Assembly: GCA_021296095.1 (NCBI GenBank) | Contig: JAGWBB010000004.1 | Span: 1 to 51,567, forward strand | Reading direction: 5' to 3' | Source: Desulfurellaceae bacterium | GTDB lineage: Bacteria; Desulfobacterota; Binatia; Bin18 | DNA length: 51,567 bases | Part shown: piece by piece, positions 737-51,515 of the stretch | Numbering within the stretch: the first letter of the stretch is position 1 | Layout of the letters: the number at the start of each line of letters is the position of its first letter | Made by a program: the position numbers and the translations under genes | Notes under the pieces: generated by a model | Database searches by the model: none | What the model was told of the DNA's origin: nothing | The model's input: only the letters and a program-made list of their open reading frames with translations

Positions 737-2287
737 TTAAAACAGGCCCGGCACAAACCGCCCGCCCGTGTCCTCGGTGGTGCACCGACCATTGTCCACC
801 GCGCTGCCGCTCTCCCCACAGCACACATCGCCCTCGCTGCACGTAAAGCCGTCAAACAGCAGCCGCGAGGCCAGCGTTTGTCCCCGGCTCGAAGGGTGGA
901 AACAGTCACAGCACGACACGTCCTGTTCGGTAAACTTGTACTCCCACGACGCGTTGCTGAAGCTCAGCTGGGTCCCGTCCGCCTTGGACGCTCCGCCCAC
1001 CTGTTCTCCGCCGATCACGAGCGTCGGCGAGGCGTGTCCGGCCGGAATAGCGGCGTACTCATAGGTCACCCGCTCAAGAATATCGCGGTACTGCCGGGCC
1101 ATGGTATACGCGTCCGCGATCCGTTCATCCGAGCAGTCCGAGGTGAGCGAGCCGCAGATACCGTTCTCGCGGACCAAGGGAGCAAATTGCCAGATCTCGC
1201 CACACGGCACCCCTGCTTGTACCCTTTCATCGTTCACACACGAGGCTTTCTGGGTGTGGTTGCACAGCTGCGAGACCCGCACCAGCGAGGCTACGCCGAT
1301 TTTCAAATCCGGCACTTCAATCAGAATATCCAGGCCCTTGCGAAATTCGCGCTCAAAGGCTTCGGGCGTGGTCCGACAGTGCCGGTTGGGGTCCTGGTCG
1401 CCGCCCTGCGGACAGCTGGCGTTGAGCTTGTCGATCATCCCGCCACAGATATCGTTGTGGCCGAGCACCACGGTCGTATAGCGGGGGGCGGCTAGAGGCT
1501 CAAGATTCGCCTTGATCTGCTGCGTCTGCTCGACAAAGTCGTCCAGCATCGTGGCGCCCGACTCGGCGCTGTTGGGGCTGACGACCTTGATCGCAGCGTC
1601 TTGACGAGACTCCAGCCTCTCGGCCTGACTCACGACCCCATCGTCGGGGGTCAGGCTGGTAGCCCAGTTCAACTCCTCCTGGTCCTCGTTGGGACATGCA
1701 TTGATATCGGCGTTGAACGCCTTGGTGATACTGTCGCCGACGGCATCCATCGACTGGATGCTGGCCGCAAAGGGGTCTGTGCGGGCGATCAGGAAGTTTT
1801 GCAGACTCTCCTGCCAGGCGACAATGCTGTCGGTGCCCTCGCGCGGAAAGTCTTCGAGCCGCGCATGTCTGCCCACGCCTTCCAGAAATTCGGCTCCGAA
1901 CTCGGTGACGGTCACCGTCGCCTGGGCGAACTCCTGGCCGTCGGCCCTGACGCTGAGCGTATGGCGGCCGGGCTCGAGCAGGCTCCAGTTGAACAGCAGC
2001 CCAAAACCGTTCGTGCCGTCATCGCCACACGCCCCTCGGGTGTCGTTACGGCTGGTACCATAGGCGGCTTGCCAGGGTTTCGTCTCATCGTCGTCAAAGA
2101 TCACCTCAATTTGCTCGGCCTCGCACACCCAACCCGAGATTACCCCGATCCCGCTCTGGAACGAATCGGGACGAGGGTTCTCCAGAAACGCGGGCGGCTG
2201 GGCCGGAAGCAAGGACGGGCGGCTGAATCCGATGATGCCGCTCATGAGGCTGGCGAACAGCAAGGCTGTGTAGCGCGGTGTTCTCAT
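737..2287 (-). CDS. Secreted SGNH/GDSL-type hydrolase with N-terminal 'SGW' module
   Basis: A 516-residue exported protein. The start at 2287 is chosen because AGGAGG lies 7 bases upstream and the next residues form a signal peptide (about 1-30, ending near LPAQ). Residues about 34-168 form a module with SGIGVISGW-C-EA, a second Cys in GACGDD, and NGF and NW motifs; it recurs in two other secreted enzymes of this window. The catalytic part follows: GDSIT at 184-188 (nucleophile Ser186), GHND further on (oxyanion block), and a C-terminal DCFHPS that supplies the usual Asp-x-x-His pair. The family includes esterases, lipases and carbohydrate deacetylases; the substrate cannot be told. Many Cys in the second half suggest disulfides outside the cytoplasm. 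It is transcribed divergently from the TonB receptor gene. Confidence 0.85.
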   Translation of the reverse strand: MRTPRYTALLFASLMSGIIGFSRPSLLPAQPPAFLENPRPDSFQSGIGVISGWVCEAEQIEVIFDDDETKPWQAAYGTSRNDTRGACGDDGTNGFGLLFNWSLLEPGRHTLSVRADGQEFAQATVTVTEFGAEFLEGVGRHARLEDFPREGTDSIVAWQESLQNFLIARTDPFAASIQSMDAVGDSITKAFNADINACPNEDQEELNWATSLTPDDGVVSQAERLESRQDAAIKVVSPNSAESGATMLDDFVEQTQQIKANLEPLAAPRYTTVVLGHNDICGGMIDKLNASCPQGGDQDPNRHCRTTPEAFEREFRKGLDILIEVPDLKIGVASLVRVSQLCNHTQKASCVNDERVQAGVPCGEIWQFAPLVRENGICGSLTSDCSDERIADAYTMARQYRDILERVTYEYAAIPAGHASPTLVIGGEQVGGASKADGTQLSFSNASWEYKFTEQDVSCCDCFHPSSRGQTLASRLLFDGFTCSEGDVCCGESGSAVDNGRCTTEDTGGRFVPGLF

Positions 2288-9432: not shown

Positions 9433-9557
9433 GAGGTCACCTCTCCAGCAAGACCAGTCGGCAACGAACCCGCAGCTTGCCCTCCTGCGTAGGGGTGGGT
9501 ATGGTGAGGCACGGTGCCGAGGTCTCAGTGACCCGGCGTACTCCCAGAGCCATCCCC

Positions 9558-9932
9558 ATGAGTGTGGAATTGATCAGCATGCTGATAGCCGTCGTCGCGG
9601 TCGGGGCGACCCTGGCCGGCTTGATGCTGAGCGGGCAGCGGGCCATTCGCACCGAACTCGCCGCCCAGCGCAAGGAGTTCAGCACCGAACTCGCCGCCCT
9701 GAGACGAGACATCAGTACCGAACTCGCCGCCCAGCGCAAAGAGTTCGGCACCGAACTCGCCGCCCTGAGACGAGACATCAGTACCGAACTCGCCGCCCAG
9801 CGCAAAGAGTTCAGCGAGCGGTTTGCCGCCTTGGAGCAGCAGATCGCCGAACTGCGCGAGCGCATGGCCCACCTGGAAGGCTTGCTCGACGGGCTGCGCG
9901 AGGCGATTGCCATCCAGCGGGGAGCCGCCTAG
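9558..9932 (+). CDS. Small membrane-anchored coiled-coil protein with 11-residue repeats
   Basis: A 124-residue protein. The start at 9558 gives MSVELISMLIAVVAVGATLAG, one N-terminal membrane helix (about residues 5-27). It is followed by a charged helix made of five consecutive 11-residue units of the form TELAAQRKEFS / TELAALRRDIS (residues about 32-86), then a heptad-like tail (LEQQIAELRERMAHLEG). The 11-residue period fits a hendecad coiled coil. An upstream Met at 9477 would add 27 residues without similarity to a signal and is not favoured. No enzymatic motif is visible; a structural or scaffolding role at the membrane is plausible. Confidence 0.7.
   Translation: MSVELISMLIAVVAVGATLAGLMLSGQRAIRTELAAQRKEFSTELAALRRDISTELAAQRKEFGTELAALRRDISTELAAQRKEFSERFAALEQQIAELRERMAHLEGLLDGLREAIAIQRGAA
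9651..9815 (+). repeat. Five tandem 33-bp coding repeats
   Basis: Units start at 9651, 9684, 9717, 9750 and 9783. Odd and even units alternate between two versions, so the longer period is 66 bp; copies one and two of the 66-bp unit differ at only a few bases. Each 33-bp unit encodes 11 residues beginning TELAA. The near-identity at DNA level points to recent tandem duplication. Confidence 0.85.
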
Positions 9933-13326: not shown

Positions 13327-14621
13327 ATGTCTCGGTTCATCAGCCTTAGCGGCATCGTCCTGCTCATCGCCATCGCCGTCCTGCTGTCCGACAACCGACG
13401 CCGCATCTCGGGCCGCCTCATCGGGGCCAGCCTCCTGCTGCAGGGGGTGATTGCCGGCCTCTTCCTCGCCTTTCCACCCGTCGTCAGCCTGGTTGACCTG
13501 CTCGCCCGGGGCGTGGTCCGGCTGTTGTCGTTTGCCCAGCGCGGCGGCCAGTTTGTGTTCGGCTCCCAGCTGCTTGACGCCGGCGGGCCGTGGGGCTTTA
13601 TCTTTGCCGCCCAGGTGTTGCCGGCCATTGTGTTCATTGCGGCCCTGATGTCGGTGCTGTACCACCTGGGCGTCATGCCCCGTCTGGTCGGTCTCCTGGC
13701 CGGGCTGTTCAGGCGCAGCCTGGGGTGACGGGCAGTGAGGCCCTGGTCGTGGCGGCGAATATCTTTGTCGGTCAGACCGAAGCCCCGCTGTGCGTCAAGC
13801 CGTATATTGCCGGGATGACGCGCTCGCAGCTGATGACGCTGATGACCGGCGGCTTCGCCACCGTGTCGGGCGGCGTACTGGCGGCGTATGTCGGGCTGTT
13901 AAGCCGTGGCGATCCGGACCTGGCCGTGATATTCACCCACCATCTGCTGACGGCCAGCGTCCTGTCGGCTCCGGCCGCATTTTTGATGGCCAAAACCCTG
14001 GTGCCGGAAACCGAGTCGGCGCCCGAGGAAAGCGGGCCGGCGCAGCTGGCTGCGGGCGACACTCACAATGTGCTCGACGCCCTGGCCTCGGGCGCGACCG
14101 ACGGCCTGTGGCTGGCCCTGAATATCGCCACCATGCTGGTCGCCTTCGTCGCCTTTCTGGCCCTGCTGAACTGGCCCTTGGAGGCGCTGAGCACCTGGAC
14201 TCCGGTCGCCGCCTGGCGCGCCCGCCTGGGTCTGCCGCCGCTGAGCTTGCAGATGCTGTTCGGCGTTGCGCTGACCCCGCTGGCCGCCGCCATGAGCATT
14301 CCCTGGGAGGAGTGTCGGGTCTTTGGCGGCTTATTGGGCGAAAAGCTGCTGGCGACCGAACTGGTCGCCTACCAATCCCTGGCCTCACTCCTGGACCCGG
14401 ACAGCGCGGCCATCAGTCGGCGCACCGCGCATATTGCCAGCTACGCCCTGTGCGGCTTTGCCAACTTTGCCGCGATCGGAGTCCAGATCGGCGCGCTGCG
14501 GGTCCTGGCGCCGGACCGCCGCCGCGACATCACCCGCCTGGCCCTACGGGCCATGATTGGCGGCGCGCTGGCCTCGTGGCTGACCGCCTGCGTGGCAGCC
14601 GTGTTCCTGCCCCTTGACTAA
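13327..14621 (+). CDS. Concentrative nucleoside transporter (NupC/CNT family), frameshifted
   Basis: The N-terminal third (13327-13728) and the rest (from about 13722) lie in different frames. Together they read as one CNT-family permease: SDNRRRISGRLIGASLLLQ near the start, then an LGVMPRL segment, and after the break GSEALVVAANIFVGQTEAPL, the family's signature substrate/sodium-site segment, and later SIPWEECRVFGGL and GFANFAAIG. The break sits in a run of four G at 13722-13725; adding one G would join the frames as LG-VTGSEAL. This is either a real frameshift inactivating the gene or a homopolymer error in the assembly. The intact protein would take up nucleosides with Na+ or H+. It converges with the antiporter gene, overlapping by four bases. 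Confidence 0.8.
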
Positions 14622-16564: not shown

Positions 16565-18109
16565 TCACGGACTATGATCTATCAGGCTATCAATGATGGA
16601 GTAGAGCATGCTGACAGTCTCGCTGCTGTAAAGATCGCCGTCGTCGTGGGAATTGGCAGCCGCTATATATGCGCGCCCTCGGCTTGGGACTGCCCGGATC
16701 ACCGCAAAGAACCCACAATACCGACCACCGCCACCTTGCGCAAAGAGCCACAGCAAGCTCCCGTGGCCTTGGTAGACAACCCACCCAGCCGCTCCTCCAT
16801 AGTTTCCTGGTATAGGGATGAGCAATTCGTCCAACTGCGCTCGATTGAGAATTGCGGGACTCGTGTGGGGAAATTGCAACGCGACGAACTTGGCGAAGTC
16901 TTCGAGTGAACAATACACGTCTCCAGCTGGAGCCAAGGGACCACCATAACCCAATTGAGCAGGTATCCACACGCCAGCACTATCGCGTCGGTGACTCCAG
17001 GGCTGATCGACCTCATGGGGGGTGTTCGGCGCTCCGAATCCCGCGCTGAACATCCCCAACGGCGCGAACAGGCGCTCCTCCATCAAGGTCTCCCAGCTCT
17101 GGCCCGTCAGCTTCTCTGCCATAGCCGCCGCAACCATATAGCCGGCGTTGGAATAGCTATACTCGCCGATGGAGCTCCCTGGAGGGTCGGCCAGATTTTC
17201 TCGAAGGATTCGGTAGCGCCGTTCAATTATGGGAAGCGTCGGATGAGACGTCCACCAGGCCGGCACGTCGTCTGGAACGCCGCCTTCATGACGAACCAGC
17301 TGCCACAGGGTGACGGCGCGGTACTCGGGATGTATCTCATCGCGCAATTCGGGAAAGACCTGGGCAATCGTGGTCTGCCAGCCGTTGACGAACGTCCCAT
17401 CCGCCACCACGGTCGCCAGCATAGTCGATGTCATGGCCTTGGTGAGGGAGCCCATTTTCACCAGATCATTGATCGTCAACTCCTCGGATGATCCCTGCCG
17501 GCGTACTCCGGCCGCCGCGATGGCCTTGATCCCCGCTTCGTCGATAATCGCCGCAATCAGTCCCGGCGACTTGCCCTCCGCCACCGGACCGGTCAGGTAC
17601 TTGACGATAGACTGGTCCACGGAGCGGGTCTGCACGGCCGCCATCTCCAGATGTTGGGTACTCTGGTTCCAGGCAAACCACGTAATCTCTCCGGGACTCG
17701 GGAAATCCGGGACCCGGACCCGGGCGCGCGCCCCCACCACAAACTCCTCGCCGGTGGTGACGACCGTAAACGTACTCCGGGCAAACTCTACACCGTTGTC
17801 GTAAGCGACGGCCGTGTGCGCGCCATCGCCCAGGATGGCCCAGTTGAAGAAACTGAAAAAGCCGTTATGGCCATCATCGCCACACACCGAGGCCGTATCG
17901 CCTCGCGGAAACCCATATGTCGCAGGGATCGGGACGCCCGCGTCGAGGCTGATCGTGATGTCCCCTTGAGCCTCACATTTCCAGCCGGAGATGACCCCGA
18001 TGCCCGACAGCGTGTCCCCGTTACCAGGAATATCGAGGGCCGATTGGGCGTGTGTCAGCGCGGGGGATAGCAGAACGAGCCCAAGGCAAAGGGCAGGCAA
18101 GGCGTACAT
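16565..18109 (-). CDS. Secreted beta-lactamase-fold serine hydrolase with N-terminal 'SGW' module
   Basis: A 514-residue exported protein with a signal peptide ending THAQ (about residue 22) and an AGGAGG-like site upstream of 18109. Residues about 25-157 form the SGIGVISGW-C-EA module shared with the SGNH hydrolase and the metalloprotease. Residues about 165-510 are a class C beta-lactamase/DD-peptidase-like domain: GSLTK at 220-224 (Ser221, Lys224 of SxxK), then YSYSNAGY (YxN motif). A late HGSLLW segment may provide the third motif. Such proteins are usually esterases or D-amino peptidases rather than resistance enzymes. It lies downstream of the metalloprotease gene on the same strand, with a 206-base gap. 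Confidence 0.87.
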   Translation of the reverse strand: MYALPALCLGLVLLSPALTHAQSALDIPGNGDTLSGIGVISGWKCEAQGDITISLDAGVPIPATYGFPRGDTASVCGDDGHNGFFSFFNWAILGDGAHTAVAYDNGVEFARSTFTVVTTGEEFVVGARARVRVPDFPSPGEITWFAWNQSTQHLEMAAVQTRSVDQSIVKYLTGPVAEGKSPGLIAAIIDEAGIKAIAAAGVRRQGSSEELTINDLVKMGSLTKAMTSTMLATVVADGTFVNGWQTTIAQVFPELRDEIHPEYRAVTLWQLVRHEGGVPDDVPAWWTSHPTLPIIERRYRILRENLADPPGSSIGEYSYSNAGYMVAAAMAEKLTGQSWETLMEERLFAPLGMFSAGFGAPNTPHEVDQPWSHRRDSAGVWIPAQLGYGGPLAPAGDVYCSLEDFAKFVALQFPHTSPAILNRAQLDELLIPIPGNYGGAAGWVVYQGHGSLLWLFAQGGGGRYCGFFAVIRAVPSRGRAYIAAANSHDDGDLYSSETVSMLYSIIDSLIDHSP

Positions 18110-18315
18110 CGCACACCTCCTGAAAGAGCGCTGCGGGCAGCCCCCTTCTATACAGCAGGGCTTCGTGTCTCAAGGACAATGAAATACGACAAACCGCTCG
18201 GTTGCTCGGACGGGGTACGGAGAGCCCCAAGAGGTCATCTCCAGCAGGCTGGAAAGGTCTGAGGTTATCTGGAGAGCCTGCGCCCACGCGTTCCTATCAT
18301 AAGGAGGGGTCATGC

Positions 18316-21300
18316 TCAGGGAATAATCACGAAGTTCTGGAGCGCCTCTTCCCACCGCAGCGTCGTGGTCTCACCCGGGTGAGGGAAGTCCACGAGGGGA
18401 AACGTGCCGCTTACCCTCTCCAAGAATTCCACCCCCAGCGTCGTCACCCGCACCGTGGTACGGGCAAACTCCAGCCCATCGGCCAGCGCCCGAATCGCGT
18501 GCTCCCCCGGCCCCAGATTGTTCCAGTTCACCAACAGGACAAAGCCGTTGTTGCTATCCCCGCAGACCCCCCGGGTATCGCCCCGGGGGGTCCCGTAGGC
18601 CGCCGGGACTGGGGTGCCGGCCAGCTCAATGACAATCTCTTGCGCTTCGCAGGCCCAGCCCGAGATGATCCCAATCCCGCTCTGGGACGAACCCAGGGAC
18701 GGGTTCTCCAACACGGCCTGAAGCCCGGCCACCCGGTTATGGCCCCCACCCTTGTCGGGCTGCCCATCGGTGATGACAAAGTTCTGCTGGGCTTCGTTCC
18801 ACCGCACAACAGTGGTCTCACCCGGATGAGGGAAGTCCGCAAGGGGAAACGTGCCGCTCACGTCCCGTAAGAATTCCACCCCGAGCGTTGTCACCCGCAC
18901 CGTCGTGCGGGCAACCTCCAGCCCATCGACCAGCGCCCGCACCGGATGCGCTCCCGGTCCCAGATTATTCCAGTTGACCAGCAGGCTGAAGCCGTTGTTG
19001 CTGTCTCCGCACACCCCCTGGGTATCGCCCCGGGGTGTCCCGTAGGCCGCCGGGACTGGAGTGCCAGCCAACTCAATGATGACCTCCCCCGCCTCACACG
19101 CCCAGCCCGAAATGATGCCGATGCCGCTCTGGGACGAGCCCGGGGACGGGTTTTCCAGACGCGCTTGTGGTGGTGGAGGTGGGGGAAGGGTATCGAAATC
19201 GGACGAGAACACGGCCACGTCGTCGATGTACCAGCCGTCGGCCGTCTGAGCCGCATCGGACCAGAGGTAAAAGGCAAGGCGGACCGACTCTCCAACGAAA
19301 GGAGTCAAATCAATTGATGTCTGCTGCCACGTCGGATTCGTACCAGTGAACGTTCGTAACTGTTCCTCCGTCCGCCACGAGCCATCCTCCTGCTGTGGTA
19401 GTGCGAGGACCCACACGCTGCCCTGATCGCCACTGGCAAAGTCGTACCGATGCCGAAAGGTCAGGGCTGCTGACTCGACCTCAGTCAGGTCGATGACTGG
19501 AGACCAAAGACCAGTGATCTGATCATTCTGATAATGGCCGCCCGGACTATCCGTCCAGGCCCGGATTCCACTTCGGGCGGACACCATAGTCTGCGCCCAT
19601 GGAGAACTCCTCAACCAACCATTAACTCCGCTCTCCATATCGTCTTCAAACAGCACCTCATTCGCTCCGGCCTGCGTCACCCTAAACGTCCAGCCCCCGA
19701 TAGTCAGCGTACCGGTCCGGGCAGTGGAACGAGGATTCCTCGTCACCGTATAGCTGACGCGCCCCTGCCCCCTGCTGCTCGCTCCGGAGGTCACACGAAT
19801 CCAGTTGGTACTGCTCCTCGCTGACCAGTCACACTCACTCGTCGCCTCGACCTGGACGCTGGCGCTGTCCTCACCGGGTCCGAAGATATGTGAGGAAACA
19901 GGCAAAAAATCGATGCAGGTGCTGAATGTGGCCGGGTCGGTGTTGATGGTCACGCGGTAGCTCGTGGACCACGCTGCGTCAACGGAGACCTGGAGGCTAT
20001 TCTTCCAGTCCGTAAAGATCTCGCCCACCGTCCACATCGCCCCTTCGTCGTTCGGGTCGCCGTTGTTGTCCACGTCCACCACCTGGGCCAGTCGGTCTGC
20101 CAACGTCGTATCGACTTTATGGATAACCACCGCTTCATCCGGGATTTCCTCATCGTAGCCGGCAAACAGCCGCGCCTCGACGGTGTAGAAGTCGGTGGCC
20201 GAGTCCCCGATGGGAATCTCGGCCATCAGGTAGCCCTCAGTACCGGGCTGGGCTAACCGTTCGAGGGTAATCGTGCGGGTCGTGTCGGGCGGGGCGACAT
20301 ACTTCCGGTCGGCTGGAATCCAGCCCAGAAAGTCCTTGTGGTAGGCGATGGTATGGACTGCTACGTTGCCATACTCGGGATCAGAGAATAAGGCCGGCGA
20401 CCATCCACCCATAACGTCCCAATAAGAGTCGTATGTCTCATCATACGGACCCGAGGAATGCTGCAAGCCCAGGGCGTGACCCATCTCGTGGGCCCAGACG
20501 TGTTGCTGAGGCTGATATTCTGGAGGCATCCATGTCACACCCCAAAATCTCCGTTGTCCATCCAGTGTCAGGAAGTGACTACCGCCCCTGGCTAGATTCC
20601 CAATGGGGGGAGCGAAATCCTGGTTAAAAACTATCGTAAAACCATCGAAATCAGGGAAGAATACATCTGTGTCTGCGGCAGCCGTGCAATCGGCTGCTGT
20701 TTTTTCAAGATCATAATCATACAAGCCGCCGTCTCTCACTATGGGAGCAGGTCGAGAAGTAGCGTAGTACGATCTTGGGTGGGGCAGGTTGTACCAGCCC
20801 ACCACCACACTCCCGGCCAAATCGGGAATGTTCCCGTCTGAAACCTCGTTCCAATAATGGCCCAGGCTAGGATAGGATGACCCCATCAGCTTCTCATAAA
20901 AGCTGACCGGCTGCGGGGTGACATGTCTGGCATCGGCAAAACGGCACAGAATAGTTACCCACGCCTGGGAACCTGAGAGCGGCTCTCTACAGCACAGCGT
21001 GACTTTGCCCGGTGCTGCTACAGCCTCATACGCGGAAAGACAGCGGCTCTCCTCATCCGTTACTACCCACACATGCCCGGCATACGTTTCTTGTGTATAA
21101 CTTTCACCTGGTCGGAGCGTCGCGTGCAAGACGCGCTGGCCAGCGAAGTCCGACCAGTAGACATAGCGAGGCTCACTCGTCTGATTGTCAAAGACGATGG
21201 TGGTGTGCTGCCCCCCTCCTTCTTCGGAGACAAGAGTATCCTCCACACTGCACGCGAGCGGCTCCAACTCCACGGCATCGGTGTTGGACAAAACGGCCGT

Positions 21301-21690
21301 CAGCCGCTGGTGTGAGAAGAGGGAGGTTTCATCCAGAGACACGGCCAGCTCGATGGAGCTGACCCGGAATCGGGCCGAGGCGTCAGTCCCGTCCGGCTCC
21401 CACTCTCCCGCCACCGTCACCCGCTGGCGGTTCAAAGCGACCGGGCCACCCAGCGGCTGCATGAGGTCTATAGCAATCAGCAGTTCGTGCCGCTCGCCCG
21501 AGTCCTCGGTCAACACATAGGTGATTTCAGCGGCAAAGCCGGCATCGGACGGGGAATCGGCGACGATAAAGGTGAACCAGCCAGTGAGGGGCTGCGGCTG
21601 GGCTGCGGCCGGCTGCGCGGAGAGCGCCCACGCTCCGAGTAGGAACAGAACTGCCCAGCTCTTTGCGCTCCCCAAAAGTAAACCTCTCAT
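18316..21690 (-). CDS. Large secreted metalloprotease: VHL-like, metzincin, BACON, jelly-roll and two 'SGW' modules
   Basis: A 1124-residue exported protein. The start at 21690 gives a signal peptide (to about residue 30), with GGGAGAGAAG upstream; an earlier ATG at 21735 lacks a signal. Order of parts: an unassigned N-terminal domain (about 33-150); a region at about 160-232 with FDNQTSEPRYVYWSDFAG, LRPGESYTQETYAGHVWVV, matching von Hippel-Lindau beta domains; a zinc protease domain with HEMGHALGLQH (401-411) and a DSYWDVMGG Met-turn-like segment; a BACON-like domain (about 585-675, ending FRVTQAG); a MAM-like jelly-roll (about 678-830, ending GWYIDDVAVF); a Pro linker; and two SGW modules (845-973 and 994-1124). 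The third His makes it metzincin-like rather than a classic M6 peptidase. It probably degrades extracellular protein. Confidence 0.88.
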   Translation of the reverse strand: MRGLLLGSAKSWAVLFLLGAWALSAQPAAAQPQPLTGWFTFIVADSPSDAGFAAEITYVLTEDSGERHELLIAIDLMQPLGGPVALNRQRVTVAGEWEPDGTDASARFRVSSIELAVSLDETSLFSHQRLTAVLSNTDAVELEPLACSVEDTLVSEEGGGQHTTIVFDNQTSEPRYVYWSDFAGQRVLHATLRPGESYTQETYAGHVWVVTDEESRCLSAYEAVAAPGKVTLCCREPLSGSQAWVTILCRFADARHVTPQPVSFYEKLMGSSYPSLGHYWNEVSDGNIPDLAGSVVVGWYNLPHPRSYYATSRPAPIVRDGGLYDYDLEKTAADCTAAADTDVFFPDFDGFTIVFNQDFAPPIGNLARGGSHFLTLDGQRRFWGVTWMPPEYQPQQHVWAHEMGHALGLQHSSGPYDETYDSYWDVMGGWSPALFSDPEYGNVAVHTIAYHKDFLGWIPADRKYVAPPDTTRTITLERLAQPGTEGYLMAEIPIGDSATDFYTVEARLFAGYDEEIPDEAVVIHKVDTTLADRLAQVVDVDNNGDPNDEGAMWTVGEIFTDWKNSLQVSVDAAWSTSYRVTINTDPATFSTCIDFLPVSSHIFGPGEDSASVQVEATSECDWSARSSTNWIRVTSGASSRGQGRVSYTVTRNPRSTARTGTLTIGGWTFRVTQAGANEVLFEDDMESGVNGWLRSSPWAQTMVSARSGIRAWTDSPGGHYQNDQITGLWSPVIDLTEVESAALTFRHRYDFASGDQGSVWVLALPQQEDGSWRTEEQLRTFTGTNPTWQQTSIDLTPFVGESVRLAFYLWSDAAQTADGWYIDDVAVFSSDFDTLPPPPPPQARLENPSPGSSQSGIGIISGWACEAGEVIIELAGTPVPAAYGTPRGDTQGVCGDSNNGFSLLVNWNNLGPGAHPVRALVDGLEVARTTVRVTTLGVEFLRDVSGTFPLADFPHPGETTVVRWNEAQQNFVITDGQPDKGGGHNRVAGLQAVLENPSLGSSQSGIGIISGWACEAQEIVIELAGTPVPAAYGTPRGDTRGVCGDSNNGFVLLVNWNNLGPGEHAIRALADGLEFARTTVRVTTLGVEFLERVSGTFPLVDFPHPGETTTLRWEEALQNFVIIP
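18319..19158 (-). repeat. Two tandem copies of the 'SGW' module
   Basis: The last two modules of the metalloprotease (18319-18711 and 18772-19158) differ at 18 of 129 aligned residues by eye, with long identical DNA stretches. They are separated by a 20-residue linker rich in Gly and charged residues. They are much closer to each other than to the single modules in the SGNH hydrolase and serine hydrolase, which indicates a recent internal duplication. Confidence 0.85.
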
Positions 21691-45710: not shown

Positions 45711-45765
45711 TATCCTTCCTGTTTTCTCTATTCCCATCCGTTCGATGAATAGGGAAGAACTCGCC

Positions 45766-48180
45766 ATGGAAAAGACACGTCTTAGCGAGAGCGATGTGCG
45801 CGCCAAGTACATCACGCCAGCCTTGCACCAGGCCGGCTGGGACGAGTCACAGATTCGCCGCGAGGTCAGTTTCACCAAAGGCCGCATTATCGTGCGCGGC
45901 AAGCTGGTCAGCCGGGGTGAGGGCAAGCAGGCCGATTACGTCCTGCACTACAAGCCCAATCTTCCCATTGCGGTGATTGAAGCCAAGGACAACATTCACG
46001 CGGTTGGTGATGGCATGCAGCAGGCTCTCGACTATGCCGAGACGCTGCATACCCCTTTTGTCTTTTCCTCCAACGGTGAGGGCTTTGTGTTCCACGACCG
46101 GACCGGCCTGAGCCCTGAGCGGGAAGCCAACCTCAGCCTAGACGCCTTTCCCTCGCCGTCCGACCTGTGGGAGCGCTACCGCGTCTGGAAGGACCTGAAA
46201 CCAGAGACGGAGAATGTTGTCACGCAGGATTATTTCAGCGATAGCAGCGGGAAGACCCCGCGCTATTATCAGGTCAACGCCATCAACGCCGCCATTGAGG
46301 CTATTGCCAAGGGCCGTGAGCGCCTCCTGCTGGTCATGGCCACTGGGACGGGCAAGACCTACACGGCCTTTCAGATCATCTGGCGACTGTGGAAGGCAGG
46401 CCGCAAGAAGCGCATCCTGTTTCTGGCCGACCGCAATGTGCTGGTTGACCAGACGATGGTCAACGACTTCCGGCCTTTCGGTCCGGCCATGGCCAAGTTG
46501 TCGCCCAGGGCCAAAACTATCGAAAAGACTATCGAACGCGCGGGCGGCTCTTCCGAGGACCTGAGTGCCGCGATTGACCGCAAGCGGCGGATTGACACCT
46601 CGTATGAAATCTATCTGGGCCTGTATCAGGCCCTGACCGGGCCGGAGGACCGTCAGAAAGTCTTTCGCCAGTTTTCGCCCGGTTTCTTCGACCTGATTGT
46701 GATTGACGAGTGCCATCGCGGCAGTGCGGCCGAGGATTCGGCCTGGCGGGAAATCCTGGACTATTTCTCGTTGGCCACCCACATCGGTCTGACGGCCACG
46801 CCCAGGGAAACGGCCTACGTGTCCAACATCGGCTACTTCGGCGAGCCGGTGTACACCTATTCTCTCAAGCAGGGCATCCGCGACGGATTTCTGGCACCCT
46901 ACAAAGTCATCAAGGTGCATATCGACCGCGACGTGGAGGGCTATCGGCCCGAACCCGGTCAGCTGGACCGGGACGGCCGCGAGGTCGAGGACCGCCTCTA
47001 TAACACCAAGGACTTTGACCGCACTCTGGTATTGGACGAACGGACCAAACTGGTGGCCCGCAAGATCACCCAATTTCTGAAGGAAAGTGGCGACCGCTTC
47101 CAGAAGACGATTGTCTTCTGCGTTGACCGGGAGCACGCCGCCCGGATGCGCCAAGCCCTGAGTAACGAGAACGCCGACCTGGTGGCCGAGAACCACCGCT
47201 ACGTCATGCGTATCACCGGCGGCGACACCGAGGGGCAGGCTCAACTGGACAACTTCATTGACCCAGAATCCACATATCCCGTGTTGGTCACGACCTCGCG
47301 GCTGCTCTCGACCGGGGTGGATGCCCAGACCTGCCGACTCATCGTGCTTGACCGTGAGGTGGGCTCCATGACCGAGTTCAAGCAGATTGTCGGCCGCGGC
47401 ACCCGCGTACACGAAGACACGCGCAAGTTCTACTTCACCCTGATAGATTTTCGGGGCGCGACCGGCCATTTCGCCGACCCCGACTTTGACGGCGAGCCGG
47501 TACAGATATACGAGCCCGGCGAGGACGGTCCCATCACTCCGCCGGACGAAGAAGAGCAAGAAATCATTGGCGATCCTCCTCCGGGGCCTCCCCCGGATAC
47601 GCGACGCAAGGTGTATGTGGACGGCATCGCCGTGACAATCGTCGCCGAGCGGGCGGAATACCTCGACGGGTACGGCAAGCTCGTCACCGAGTCCTTGCGC
47701 GACTTCACCAAGAAGGCACTGAAAAAACGCTTTGCCAGCCTGGACGATTTTCTCAAGCGCTGGAAGGCGGCCGAGCGCAAGCAAGCCATTCTTGAGGAGT
47801 TGGAGGCCGAGGGGCTGGCGCTCGATACGATTGCCCAGGAACTCGGCAAGGAACTCGGCAAGGACCTCGACCCCTTTGACCTCATCTGCCATGTCGCCTT
47901 TGACGCCAAGCCGCTGACCCGCCGCGAGCGCGCCCAGCACGTCAGGAAGCGCGACGTGTTCCACAAGTACGGTGGCCCGGCCCGCGCCGTGCTCGACGCC
48001 CTGCTGACCAAATATGCCGACGAGGGCGTGCTCAACCTCGACGACGCCAACGTGCTGCGCATCCCGCCGTTTACCACACTCGGCACGCCGGTGCAGCTAA
48101 TCAGAGCCTTTGGCAGCAAGGACAGATTCCTGGCCGCCGTTCACGACCTGCAAGCCGCCCTGTATCAGGAGACCGCCTAA
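45766..48180 (+). CDS. hsdR: Type I restriction enzyme R subunit
   Basis: An 804-residue endonuclease/translocase subunit. The start at 45766 follows GGGAAG; the ATG at 45745 has no ribosome binding site. The nuclease site PD-(D/E)xK is seen as Asp57, Glu72 and Lys74 (ADYV...IEAKD). The SF2 motor has Walker A MATGTGKT (191-198), DECH (IDECHRGS), LTATP and the late RGTRVHEDT motif. The C-terminal part is the EcoEI/EcoKI-type HsdR domain binding the methylase. It cuts unmodified DNA after translocation, together with HsdM and HsdS. Confidence 0.95.
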   Translation: MEKTRLSESDVRAKYITPALHQAGWDESQIRREVSFTKGRIIVRGKLVSRGEGKQADYVLHYKPNLPIAVIEAKDNIHAVGDGMQQALDYAETLHTPFVFSSNGEGFVFHDRTGLSPEREANLSLDAFPSPSDLWERYRVWKDLKPETENVVTQDYFSDSSGKTPRYYQVNAINAAIEAIAKGRERLLLVMATGTGKTYTAFQIIWRLWKAGRKKRILFLADRNVLVDQTMVNDFRPFGPAMAKLSPRAKTIEKTIERAGGSSEDLSAAIDRKRRIDTSYEIYLGLYQALTGPEDRQKVFRQFSPGFFDLIVIDECHRGSAAEDSAWREILDYFSLATHIGLTATPRETAYVSNIGYFGEPVYTYSLKQGIRDGFLAPYKVIKVHIDRDVEGYRPEPGQLDRDGREVEDRLYNTKDFDRTLVLDERTKLVARKITQFLKESGDRFQKTIVFCVDREHAARMRQALSNENADLVAENHRYVMRITGGDTEGQAQLDNFIDPESTYPVLVTTSRLLSTGVDAQTCRLIVLDREVGSMTEFKQIVGRGTRVHEDTRKFYFTLIDFRGATGHFADPDFDGEPVQIYEPGEDGPITPPDEEEQEIIGDPPPGPPPDTRRKVYVDGIAVTIVAERAEYLDGYGKLVTESLRDFTKKALKKRFASLDDFLKRWKAAERKQAILEELEAEGLALDTIAQELGKELGKDLDPFDLICHVAFDAKPLTRRERAQHVRKRDVFHKYGGPARAVLDALLTKYADEGVLNLDDANVLRIPPFTTLGTPVQLIRAFGSKDRFLAAVHDLQAALYQETA

Positions 48181-48183
48181 TCC

Positions 48184-49638
48184 ATGTCTGTTCGCACCTC
48201 GGTCAAATCCATCCAGAACATCATGCGCCAGGACAGCGGCGTGGACGGCGACGCCCAGCGCATCAGCCAGCTGTGCTGGATGTTTTTTCTCAAGATCATC
48301 GACGATCAGGACCAGGAGTTGGAACTGATGCAGGCCGACTACACCTCCCCGGTCCCGCAGCGCCTCCAGTGGCGGACCTGGGCCGCCGACCCCGAGGGCA
48401 GGACCGGCGAGGAACTGTTGACCTTCATTAACGCCGAGTTATTCCCGGCTCTGAAGGACCTGCAAACCGCCCAGACCGGAGCCCGTGGCCGTGTGGTGCG
48501 CGAGGTCTTTGAGGACGCCTACAACTACATGAAGTCCGGCCAGCTGATGCGGCAGGTGGTCAACACAATCAACGACATTGACTTCAACAATCTGAGTGAG
48601 CGCCAGCATTTCGGCGACATCTACGAGCAGATTCTGAACGACCTGCAATCCGCGGGCAATGCCGGCGAGTACTACACGCCGCGCGCCGTGACCGCCTTCA
48701 TGGTGGACCGCATTGACCCGCACCCCGGCGAGAGCCTGTTCGACCCGGCCTGCGGCACCGGCGGTTTTCTGAGCTGCGCGCTGCGCCACATGCGCCAGCG
48801 CTACATCAAGCGACCCGAAGACGAGGCCGCCCTGCAAGCCGCCCTGCGGGCCGTGGAGAAGAAGCCCCTGCCGCATATGCTGTGTGTGACCAACATGCTG
48901 CTGCACGGCGTTGAGGACCCCAGCTTCGTGCGTCACGACAACACCCTGGCCCGGCCGTATATCGGCTGGGGACAAAAGGACCGGGTGGACATCGTGCTGA
49001 CCAACCCGCCCTTTGGCGGCAAGGAGGAAGACGGCATTGAGAGCAACTTCCCGCAGCATTTTCGGACCAAGGAGACCGCCGACCTGTTCCTGGCTCTCAT
49101 CGTCCGGCTGCTGAAGCCGGGCGGACGCGCCGCCGTGGTCCTGCCCGACGGCTCGCTGTTTGGCGAGGGTGTCAAGACCCGGCTCAAGGAACATCTGCTG
49201 GAGGAGTGCAACCTGCATACCATCGTCCGTCTGCCGAACTCGGTGTTCCGGCCCTACGCCTCCATCGGCACCAACCTGCTGTTTTTCGAGAAAGGCGCAC
49301 CGACACAAGACATCTGGTTCTACGAGCACCGCGTGCCCGAGGGCCAGAAAGCCTATTCCATGACCAGACCGATCCGGCTGGAGCACCTGCAAGACTGCGT
49401 GGACTGGTGGGGCGGAACGGAGCGCAAAGGCCGCGCGGAAACGGAACGCGCCTGGAAGGTGACCGCCGAAGAGGTCAAGGCGCGCGGCTACAACCTGGAC
49501 ATCAAGAACCCCCACACCCAGGAGGACGAACTGGGCGACCCGCAAGAGCTGCTGGCCAAGCTCACCGAGACTGAGGCCGAAGCCGCCAATCTGCGCGACC
49601 AGCTCAAGACAATCTTGGCGAAAGCGTTGCTGCGATGA
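48184..49638 (+). CDS. hsdM: Type I DNA methyltransferase M subunit
   Basis: A 484-residue N6-adenine methylase. The N-terminal helical HsdM domain (about 1-140) leads to the SAM-binding motif LFDPACGTGGF (185-195) and the catalytic NPPFGG (274-279). The C-terminal part ends in a coiled coil (TETEAEAANLRDQLK). It starts three bases after the hsdR stop. Its stop overlaps the ATG of a truncated hsdS copy (ATGA at 49635-49638), the normal hsdM-hsdS coupling. Confidence 0.96.
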   Translation: MSVRTSVKSIQNIMRQDSGVDGDAQRISQLCWMFFLKIIDDQDQELELMQADYTSPVPQRLQWRTWAADPEGRTGEELLTFINAELFPALKDLQTAQTGARGRVVREVFEDAYNYMKSGQLMRQVVNTINDIDFNNLSERQHFGDIYEQILNDLQSAGNAGEYYTPRAVTAFMVDRIDPHPGESLFDPACGTGGFLSCALRHMRQRYIKRPEDEAALQAALRAVEKKPLPHMLCVTNMLLHGVEDPSFVRHDNTLARPYIGWGQKDRVDIVLTNPPFGGKEEDGIESNFPQHFRTKETADLFLALIVRLLKPGGRAAVVLPDGSLFGEGVKTRLKEHLLEECNLHTIVRLPNSVFRPYASIGTNLLFFEKGAPTQDIWFYEHRVPEGQKAYSMTRPIRLEHLQDCVDWWGGTERKGRAETERAWKVTAEEVKARGYNLDIKNPHTQEDELGDPQELLAKLTETEAEAANLRDQLKTILAKALLR

Positions 49639-49668
49639 AGGCCGAACACCTGCTCACCCACTTCGACC
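49635..49668 (+). pseudogene. Orphaned 5' end of hsdS
   Basis: Thirty-four bases (encoding MKAEHLLTHFD) match the start of the intact hsdS at 50397-50430 at 32 of 34 positions, and overlap the hsdM stop in the ATGA form expected for hsdS. After residue 11 the frame diverges into non-homologous sequence and stops at 49823. This is the original hsdS start, cut off from its body by the toxin-antitoxin cassette. Confidence 0.75.
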
Positions 49669-49694
49669 ACTACACCCCCAAAGCATTGCTAAAA

Positions 49695-49712
49695 AGTAGC
49701 CTATACGCTACT
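49695..49712. promoter_or_regulatory. Palindromic operator candidate of the toxin-antitoxin operon
   Basis: AGTAGC at 49695-49700 and GCTACT at 49707-49712 form a perfect palindrome around CTATAC, 8 bases before the toxin start. A -10-like TATAC lies at its centre. Position and symmetry fit autorepression by the HTH antitoxin. Confidence 0.5.
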
Positions 49713-49719
49713 GAAAGAT

Positions 49720-50052
49720 ATGCCCGAGAGTCGATATCGACAGGCTGTCGCCTATGTGGCGAACGATGGGAGCACGCCATTCGCGGAGTGGCTTCGTACA
49801 CTGAAGAATCGGAAAGCGCGTAATAACATCCGTGTCAGAATAGCACGACTCCGCCTCGGCAACCTTGGAGATTACAAATCCGTCGGTCATGGGGTGTTGG
49901 AACTCCGCGTAGATAGCGGCCCAGGCTATCGGGTGTATATCGGACAAGACGGCTCACGTTTTATCCTCCTTTTGTGCGGGGGAACGAAACGGACCCAAGC
50001 GGTGGATATCAAAAAGGCCCAAGAGTATTGGGCTGACTATATTGGGAGATGA
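49720..50052 (+). CDS. RelE/HigB-type toxin (addiction module killer protein)
   Basis: A 110-residue protein of the RelE/ParE superfamily, HigB-like subgroup. Marks: PFAEWLRTLKNRKARNNIRVRIARLRLGN, then the subgroup's HGVLELRVDSGPGYRVYIGQDG and LLLCGGTKRTQAVDIKKAQEYW. It probably cleaves mRNA at the ribosome. Codon and base use are less GC-rich than in hsdM. The antitoxin gene follows after 4 bases: the toxin-first order is typical of higBA. Confidence 0.9.
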   Translation: MPESRYRQAVAYVANDGSTPFAEWLRTLKNRKARNNIRVRIARLRLGNLGDYKSVGHGVLELRVDSGPGYRVYIGQDGSRFILLLCGGTKRTQAVDIKKAQEYWADYIGR

Positions 50053-50056
50053 GCAT

Positions 50057-50377
50057 ATGGCAAGGCGCACTATTCCCTACGAAGACCTCCTCTATCAGGA
50101 CCTCCAAGACCCCGAAGAAGCTGTAGCGTATCTGAACGCTGCCCTGGACGACGAATACGCAAAGGGGGCAGAGGTCTTTCTCTTGGCCCTCCGTGATGTC
50201 GCCAAAGCTCGTGGCATGAAACAACTCGCTCAGGATACGCAGCTCAGCCGGGAGAGCTTGTACCGAACATTGTCCCGCAAGGGCAACCCGCGCTTTTCTA
50301 CGCTTGAGGCCGTGCTGAAGAGTCTGGGACTGAAACTGAGCGTAACGGTGAACCCCTCGGAAACGACGGCTGCCTAA
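50057..50377 (+). CDS. HigA-like antitoxin
   Basis: A 106-residue protein with start at 50057 and GGGAGATGAG just upstream. An N-terminal segment typical of this antidote family (DLLYQDLQDPEEAVAYLNAALDD) is followed by an XRE-type HTH (about 60-100, MKQLAQDTQLSRESLYRTLSRKGNPRFSTL). It neutralises the toxin and likely represses the operon at the palindrome upstream. Confidence 0.9.
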   Translation: MARRTIPYEDLLYQDLQDPEEAVAYLNAALDDEYAKGAEVFLLALRDVAKARGMKQLAQDTQLSRESLYRTLSRKGNPRFSTLEAVLKSLGLKLSVTVNPSETTAA

Positions 50378-50396
50378 CCTCCGCGTCGCCTCTCCA

Positions 50397-51515
50397 ATGA
50401 ACGCCGAACACCTGCTCACCCACTTTGACCGCCTCGCCGACGCGCCGGACGCCATTCCGCGCTTGCGCCGGTTCATTCTCGACTTGGCTGTACGCGGCAA
50501 GCTGGTCGAGCAGGACCCGAATGATGAGCCGGCGTCGGAACTGTTGAAGCGGATTGCGGCGGAGAAGGCGCGGTTGGTGAAGGCGGGGGAGATGAAGAAA
50601 CGAAAGCCCTTTGCACCGGTTGAACAAGGAGAACAACCCTTCGTGGCGCCGAGCTGTTGGGCTGCGACAAGGCTGGCGTTCATCGCCGAATGCTTAGATT
50701 ATATGCGAAAGCCGGTAAACGGGACCGAGCGCGAACAACGAATCGCGAATAAGTCTCAGTCTGAATTGTTCCCGTATTTCGGTGCAACACAGCAACAGGG
50801 ATGGATCGACGACTACATATTCGACGAGGAACTTGTTCTGCTCGGTGAAGATGGAGTGCCTTTCTTCGAGCCTCTACGCAAAAAAGCTTATCTGATCGCA
50901 GGAAAATTCTGGGTCAATAACCATGCCCATGTGTTTCGCACCATTCTCGTTTCACATCCATACCTGGTCCACTACTTAAACGTCTTTGACTATTCGGGGA
51001 GAGTGGTTGGGGCGACACGATCAAAGCTTAACCAAGCCAAGGCCCTTGATATTCCGATAATGCTCCCGCCCCTCGCCGAACAACACCGCATCGTCGCCAA
51101 AGTCGATGAACTGATGGCTCTCTGCGACCGGCTGGAAGCAGCACGGAAAGAGCGAGAAACCACGCGCAACCGACTGGCAGCGGCAAGCCTCGCTCGTCTC
51201 AGCGCGCCCGCCCCCGACCCGGCGGTATTTCAGAGCCACACCGCCTCCGCCCTCAACAACCTCGCCCCCCTCACCACTCGCCCCGACCAGATCAAGGCGC
51301 TCCGTCAGACTATCCTCAGCTTGGCGGTACGAGGGAATTTGGTGGAGCAGGACCCAAACGATGAGCCAGCAGCGGAGCTGCTGAAGCGGATTCGGGGGTG
51401 GCGGAGTCGTGCAATTGCACAAAAGAAGATTCGAGCGCCACGGAAGCCCCTGGCACCGATAAAGAATGAAGAAAGCCCTTATTCTCGACCTAGAGCGGTT
51501 CACGTTAAGCTGTAG
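50397..51515 (+). CDS. hsdS: Type I specificity subunit HsdS, apparently one-TRD form
   Basis: A 372-residue protein, shorter than the usual 400-600. Order: conserved segment (about 20-75, LAVRGKLVEQDPNDEPASELLKRI), one target-recognition domain (about 80-215), a central coiled-coil region starting LPPLAEQHRIVAKVDELMALCDRLE, and a second copy of the first segment (about 300-360, LAVRGNLVEQDPNDEPAAELLKRI). The frame ends at YSRPRAVHVKL, just where the second recognition domain should begin. No upstream hsdM coupling exists at this copy (start is 20 bases after the antitoxin stop) and no clear ribosome binding site is seen. It may be truncated, or a functional half-subunit. Confidence 0.85.
   Translation: MNAEHLLTHFDRLADAPDAIPRLRRFILDLAVRGKLVEQDPNDEPASELLKRIAAEKARLVKAGEMKKRKPFAPVEQGEQPFVAPSCWAATRLAFIAECLDYMRKPVNGTEREQRIANKSQSELFPYFGATQQQGWIDDYIFDEELVLLGEDGVPFFEPLRKKAYLIAGKFWVNNHAHVFRTILVSHPYLVHYLNVFDYSGRVVGATRSKLNQAKALDIPIMLPPLAEQHRIVAKVDELMALCDRLEAARKERETTRNRLAAASLARLSAPAPDPAVFQSHTASALNNLAPLTTRPDQIKALRQTILSLAVRGNLVEQDPNDEPAAELLKRIRGWRSRAIAQKKIRAPRKPLAPIKNEESPYSRPRAVHVKL

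Follow-up and report, generated by a model that had tools for sequence, protein, structure and literature searches.

Two described kinds of Ig-like domain come closest to the module examined here. One is Big_7 (PF17957), which is itself called only an Ig domain; the other is the C-terminal domain of type IX secretion, where Ig-like domains act as sorting signals. The module, which we refer to as SGW, was found in a 51,567-nucleotide stretch of DNA (the window), part of a contig of 117,666 bases in a genome of 4.32 Mb. The host is a member of the Ca. Binatota/Binatia lineage, bin18 group, which is sponge-associated. Our literature search found no paper on the module, and one paper on sponge Binatota is silent on it.

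SGW resembles Big_7 in its Ig-like sandwich, and its residues 1-92 can be aligned with that family via intermediates that we term GW/RxD-type Ig domains; it differs from Big_7 in its extra C-terminal strands, two fixed cysteines and terminal placement. Like the type IX domains, it is an Ig-like module that can stand at the very C-terminus of an exported protein; unlike them, it also occurs directly behind the signal peptide.

Module copies and their carriers in the window

Four copies of about 132 residues were read in open frames of the window, all on the minus strand (Table 1), and their alignment of 137 columns contains 45 invariant ones. All four had been claimed in an earlier, sequence-only reading and lie where it placed them, except that the profile redraws the limits of the C-terminal pair to those in the table. 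Its three unrelated carriers were also recovered: a GDSL lipase (PF00657, E 8.6e-10; motifs GDSI, GHND and DCFH), a beta-lactamase-family hydrolase (PF00144, E 2.8e-33; motifs SLTK and YSN) and a metalloprotease with the motif HEMGHALGLQH (TIGR03296, E 8e-16, below the curated cut-off). In the metalloprotease, BACON and InhA-like MAM domains precede the two tandem modules, and the envelope of the last copy reaches the final residue of the protein, with 0 residues after it.

Table 1. Genes, SGW modules and signal peptides of the three carriers in the window
Feature	Position	Strand	Basis
Gene: signal peptide, one SGW module, SGNH/GDSL hydrolase	737..2287	-	ORF 737-2410
SGW module, N-terminal copy on SGNH hydrolase	1784..2188	-	Profile match, E 9.4e-71
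Gene: signal peptide, one SGW module, beta-lactamase-family hydrolase	16565..18109	-	ORF
SGW module, N-terminal copy on beta-lactamase-family hydrolase	17639..18040	-	Profile match, E 3.3e-70
Signal peptide of beta-lactamase-family carrier, MYALPALCLGLVLLSPALTHAQ	18044..18109	-	Read in sequence; hydrophobicity heuristic
Gene: signal peptide, M6-type metalloprotease, BACON, MAM-like domain, two C-terminal SGW modules	18316..21690	-	ORF
SGW module, first of metalloprotease C-terminal tandem pair	18769..19158	-	Profile match, E 1.3e-70
SGW module, last of metalloprotease tandem pair	18322..18714	-	Profile match, E 6.8e-71
Signal peptide of metalloprotease, MRGLLLGSAKSWAVLFLLGAWALSAQPAAAQ	21598..21690	-	Read in sequence; heuristic

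The most likely start of the SGNH gene is the ATG at 2287, which is followed by the signal peptide MRTPRYTALLFASLMSGIIGF, and that of the protease gene is the ATG at 21690; start codons and signal peptides were picked by a hydrophobicity heuristic, not a dedicated predictor. By this heuristic a signal peptide is recognizable on every window carrier, as the sequence-only reading had stated, and together with the secreted-type partners this backs its view of SGW as an extracellular accessory module.

Other genes of the window lie on the plus strand. A NupC/CNT-like nucleoside transporter is apparently split over two overlapping frames (13327-13728 and 13590-14621), as judged from the translations, which suggests a frameshift near 13728, either an assembly error or real. 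A membrane-anchored coiled-coil protein at 9477-9932 carries several near-identical repeats (RKEFSTELAALRRDISTELAAQ), and the translations at the window end (45745-51515) resemble the type I restriction-modification genes hsdR, hsdM and hsdS.

Predicted fold and conserved residues

AlphaFold modeled the last tandem copy as a beta-sandwich with a mean pLDDT of 93.8, in which the final 30 residues form three strands; the models belong with Ig-like beta-sandwiches of seven or so strands. When the last 38 residues were removed, the mean pLDDT was 89.0, the strand at residues 2-4 was lost and the mean over the first ten residues fell from 95 to 63, although the alignment behind the shortened model was smaller and partly different, which leaves the comparison not fully controlled. 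These models suggest a single unit of all 132 residues, in which the C-terminal extension would pair with the strand at the N-terminus. Searched with Foldseek, as had been proposed from the sequence, the PDB gave no match at E<=0.001 and returned only generic Ig-like and CBM48-like domains. A search of solved structures by sequence found no homologue (best E 1.1).

R44, D46 and N63 show practically no variation among 150 copies, and conservation is strong at W20, R44, D46, C22/C51, G57, F58, N63, W121 and Q126; these residues might be structural. Cys22 and Cys51 are both present in 145 of the 150 copies and both missing in 4, and because they co-occur or are jointly absent, the disulfide proposed in the sequence-only reading is likely.

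Part of this evidence has been read in favor of a carbohydrate-binding module that would bring an enzyme to its substrate polysaccharide. One paper lists Big_7 among the carbohydrate-binding domains of chitinases (PMC8950537). SGW has conserved aromatics, and among the PDB folds nearest to its core are the CBM48-type domain of feruloyl esterase 6rzn and the esterase wtsFae1B (TMq 0.56-0.57, E 0.01-0.02). These Foldseek values are weak and generic, however, few carriers are polysaccharide-active, and Big_7 is termed an Ig domain only; we regard carbohydrate binding of this kind as distinctly improbable.

Relation to Big_7 and other Ig domains

No Pfam or NCBIfam model matches the window copies, and to that extent the description of the module as unnamed stands; the family nevertheless runs into Pfam Big_7 through intermediates. 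Big_7 gave no match at E<=1 to the three window carriers, and all 33 members of the A2 module set missed its cut-off, with weak matches in 2 of them (best E 0.022). Its gathering score of 24.1 bits was passed by two Competibacteraceae carriers, L105 (28.3 bits) and L084 (24.7 bits), and by a distant SGW member, L164 (24.2 bits), all of these being whole-protein scores and two of them only just over the cut-off. In L105 and L084, the best Big_7 stretches fall inside the second SGW module.

The intermediates are the GW/RxD-type Ig domains of the same and related genomes, some of which pass Pfam Big_7. They share the GW, R-x-D, SG/NGF-like, N and G-H motifs with SGW but lack the C22/C51 pair, have longer loops and in some cases carry a CC motif. 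In profile-profile comparisons, SGW residues 1-92 matched the GW/RxD-type domains at E 3.2e-18, and the GW/RxD profile matched canonical Big_7 at E 7.7e-7, whereas SGW compared directly with canonical Big_7 gave nothing, so that the link is bridged only through GW/RxD. From these comparisons, the SGW module most probably belongs to a known Ig-like family as a diverged branch, a variant of the Big_7-type Ig domain. A categorically new fold was rejected on the Ig-like prediction and the profile bridge. Since the GW/RxD-type domains share them, the GW, R-x-D and NGF motifs, which had been taken as hallmarks of the module and are indeed conserved in it, are older than the module itself.

Two distant SGW relatives in the host genome, L163 (G000 C46) and L164 (G000 C10), lack both Cys22 and Cys51. 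Some relatives of this type have a CC motif, and they sit on beta-propeller and imelysin proteins. Such relatives are evolutionary intermediates to Big_7.

Placement in exported proteins

We examined 102 complete carriers, comprising the 80 best contig-scan matches and the host genome; these include orthologues and so cannot be counted as separate events. In 55 of them the module is C-terminal, ending 0-10 residues before the stop and standing in tandem in 44, and in 37 it is N-terminal, beginning 19-44 residues downstream of the start and immediately after the signal peptide. A further 5, all short ORFs, have it at both ends, and in the remaining 5 it is internal. Of these internal carriers, L060, L085 and L098 have a partial or frame-shifted neighboring copy and look like damaged terminal cases, and the other two (L088 and L125) look truly internal. 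In a relative with a single-contig genome (G007), all 18 intact carriers are terminal (9 N-terminal, 8 C-terminal and 1 both). A clear signal peptide was found in 91 of the 102 by the heuristic. On a tree of 150 modules, 9 changes of the N- or C-terminal label are counted, where shuffles give about 43, so that modules mostly inherit their position and move only occasionally. Two Cache proteins (L147:2546-4273 and L194:1790-3718) have a split second module, the last strands of which (model positions 104-132) lie about 70 residues later, near the C-terminus.

Such placement bears on the reading of SGW as a passive end-cap or spacer, a protease-resistant, disulfide-bonded stabilizer of exported proteins without a specific partner. 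The generic Ig-like fold, the paired cysteines and the great diversity of partners would all fit. Spacers, however, usually lie between domains, and SGW is nearly always terminal, in contrast to the canonical Big_7 copies of related genomes, most of which are internal (a small sample); the invariant polar residues R44, D46 and N63 also exceed what a spacer needs, though they are perhaps structural. We consider a passive role unlikely.

Terminal placement also invites comparison with sorting signals. The known C-terminal sorting tags (type IX CTD, PEP-CTERM and GlyGly-CTERM) were rejected, since SGW is not restricted to the C-terminus: 9 of the 18 carriers in G007 have it at the N-terminus only, and the N-terminal copies among the 102 carriers bear out the earlier statement that it is no classical C-terminal tag. 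No SGW member matched any NCBIfam sorting model below E 0.04. The exosortase model TIGR02602 found no match in the host genome, which also rejects PEP-CTERM, and SprA_N (PF14349) found none there, but the control genomes gave none either. The secretin search of the host genome returned a single match, PilQ in a PilM-PilQ type IV pilus locus (G000:C6:44267-44779; L186 and L187), and no GspD, though many proteins look secreted. Type II secretion was rejected as the export route, the only secretin found in the genome belonging to that pilus locus.

A sorting or export signal of another kind, read at either chain end by an outer-membrane export or attachment machine, would agree with the terminal placement, with PilQ as the sole secretin found in the absence of GspD, and with the established sorting role of Ig-like C-terminal domains in the type IX system. 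It would have to operate from both ends, unlike known C-terminal sorting domains, the host genome showed no exosortase, and no partner machine was found; we think such a signal quite unlikely.

Partner domains and distribution among genomes

Domain searches of the carriers beyond the window identified proteases (M4, M10, M12B-like and S8), propellers (PD40, DUF5122 and lactonase/NHL) and LRR, cadherin, fn3, Cache, Dabb, SnoaL, imelysin, PASTA and PhoPQ-related domains, and many carriers have no known partner domain. The partners are united by export, not by any chemistry.

The profile of the four window copies, a search suggested by the sequence-only reading, matched the host genome 47 times at E<=0.01, with the window copies themselves at about 1e-70 and most others below 1e-30. 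Within the class Binatia, SGW was detected in 27 of 148 genomes, in a survey where copy counts for large genomes are floors (at most 28 candidates scored per genome). All 16 genomes of the host's own family carry it, in 3 to 58 copies by a fuller count, as do 11 genomes of a second family (f5), one genome of which has none; no module was found in the other Binatia families, two of about 15 sampled families being positive. The contig scan used a six-sequence alignment, a first family-wide alignment having been too diverse. Outside Binatia, it detected SGW in Competibacteraceae (Competibacter and Contendobacter) and a few other MAGs, mostly labeled gammaproteobacterial (Luminiphilus, Pseudomonadales), with some labeled cyanobacterium, Phycisphaerales or unclassified bacterium; the odd labels of the non-gammaproteobacterial MAGs may be wrong. 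Thirteen non-Binatia genomes have 1-13 counted matches each, some of which are more distant relatives. No relative was found among viral contigs, and a viral origin of the module was rejected on this ground.

The SGW family is expanded in certain clades, as is well supported by the computation. Near-strict terminal placement and this distribution are the main new result; the sequence-only reading had missed the placement, the copy number per genome and the two-clade distribution.

A possible docking role

Because unrelated proteins share the module, at their ends and often doubled, its best reading is an Ig-like retention or docking module at the chain ends of exported proteins, a proposal that in our judgment stands about an even chance of being right. 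Computation shows or well supports that the copies form one family related to Ig domains, with paired cysteines, terminal placement and export signals; we infer the binding, its ligand and the holding of proteins in place. SGW would be a disulfide-stapled Ig-like sandwich, with a Big_7-type core (residues 1-92) and a three-strand C-terminal extension, added nearly always at the ends, either behind the signal peptide or as the final one, mostly two, domains. After export, the module would bind one common partner, which might be a glycan on the surface, a protein of the envelope or matrix, or another SGW module, and this binding would keep enzymes, propellers, LRR proteins and sensors on the cell surface or within the matrix. 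Against docking, periplasmic-type partners (Cache, Dabb, SnoaL and imelysin) do not demand surface display, the conserved residues may be structural, and the Foldseek matches are generic.

A bolder version of the idea is that SGW is the address label by which Ca. Binatota and Competibacteraceae would retain proteins at the surface or export them, through an unrecognized pathway with one receptor that would accept the module at either free end. The Binatota genome concerned has the type IV pilus secretin as the only secretin found, and we treat this version as a long shot.

In an uncultured lineage, a module family not described before marks dozens of exported proteins in each genome, and these otherwise anonymous proteins thereby gain a common handle. 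Annotation would benefit as well, since SGW widens the Big_7/Ig-like region and would give many hypothetical proteins a name. Bacterial Ig-like domains are not usually confined to chain ends as this one is, and its placement leads to a testable prediction, namely that the proteins carrying the module share docking or sorting.
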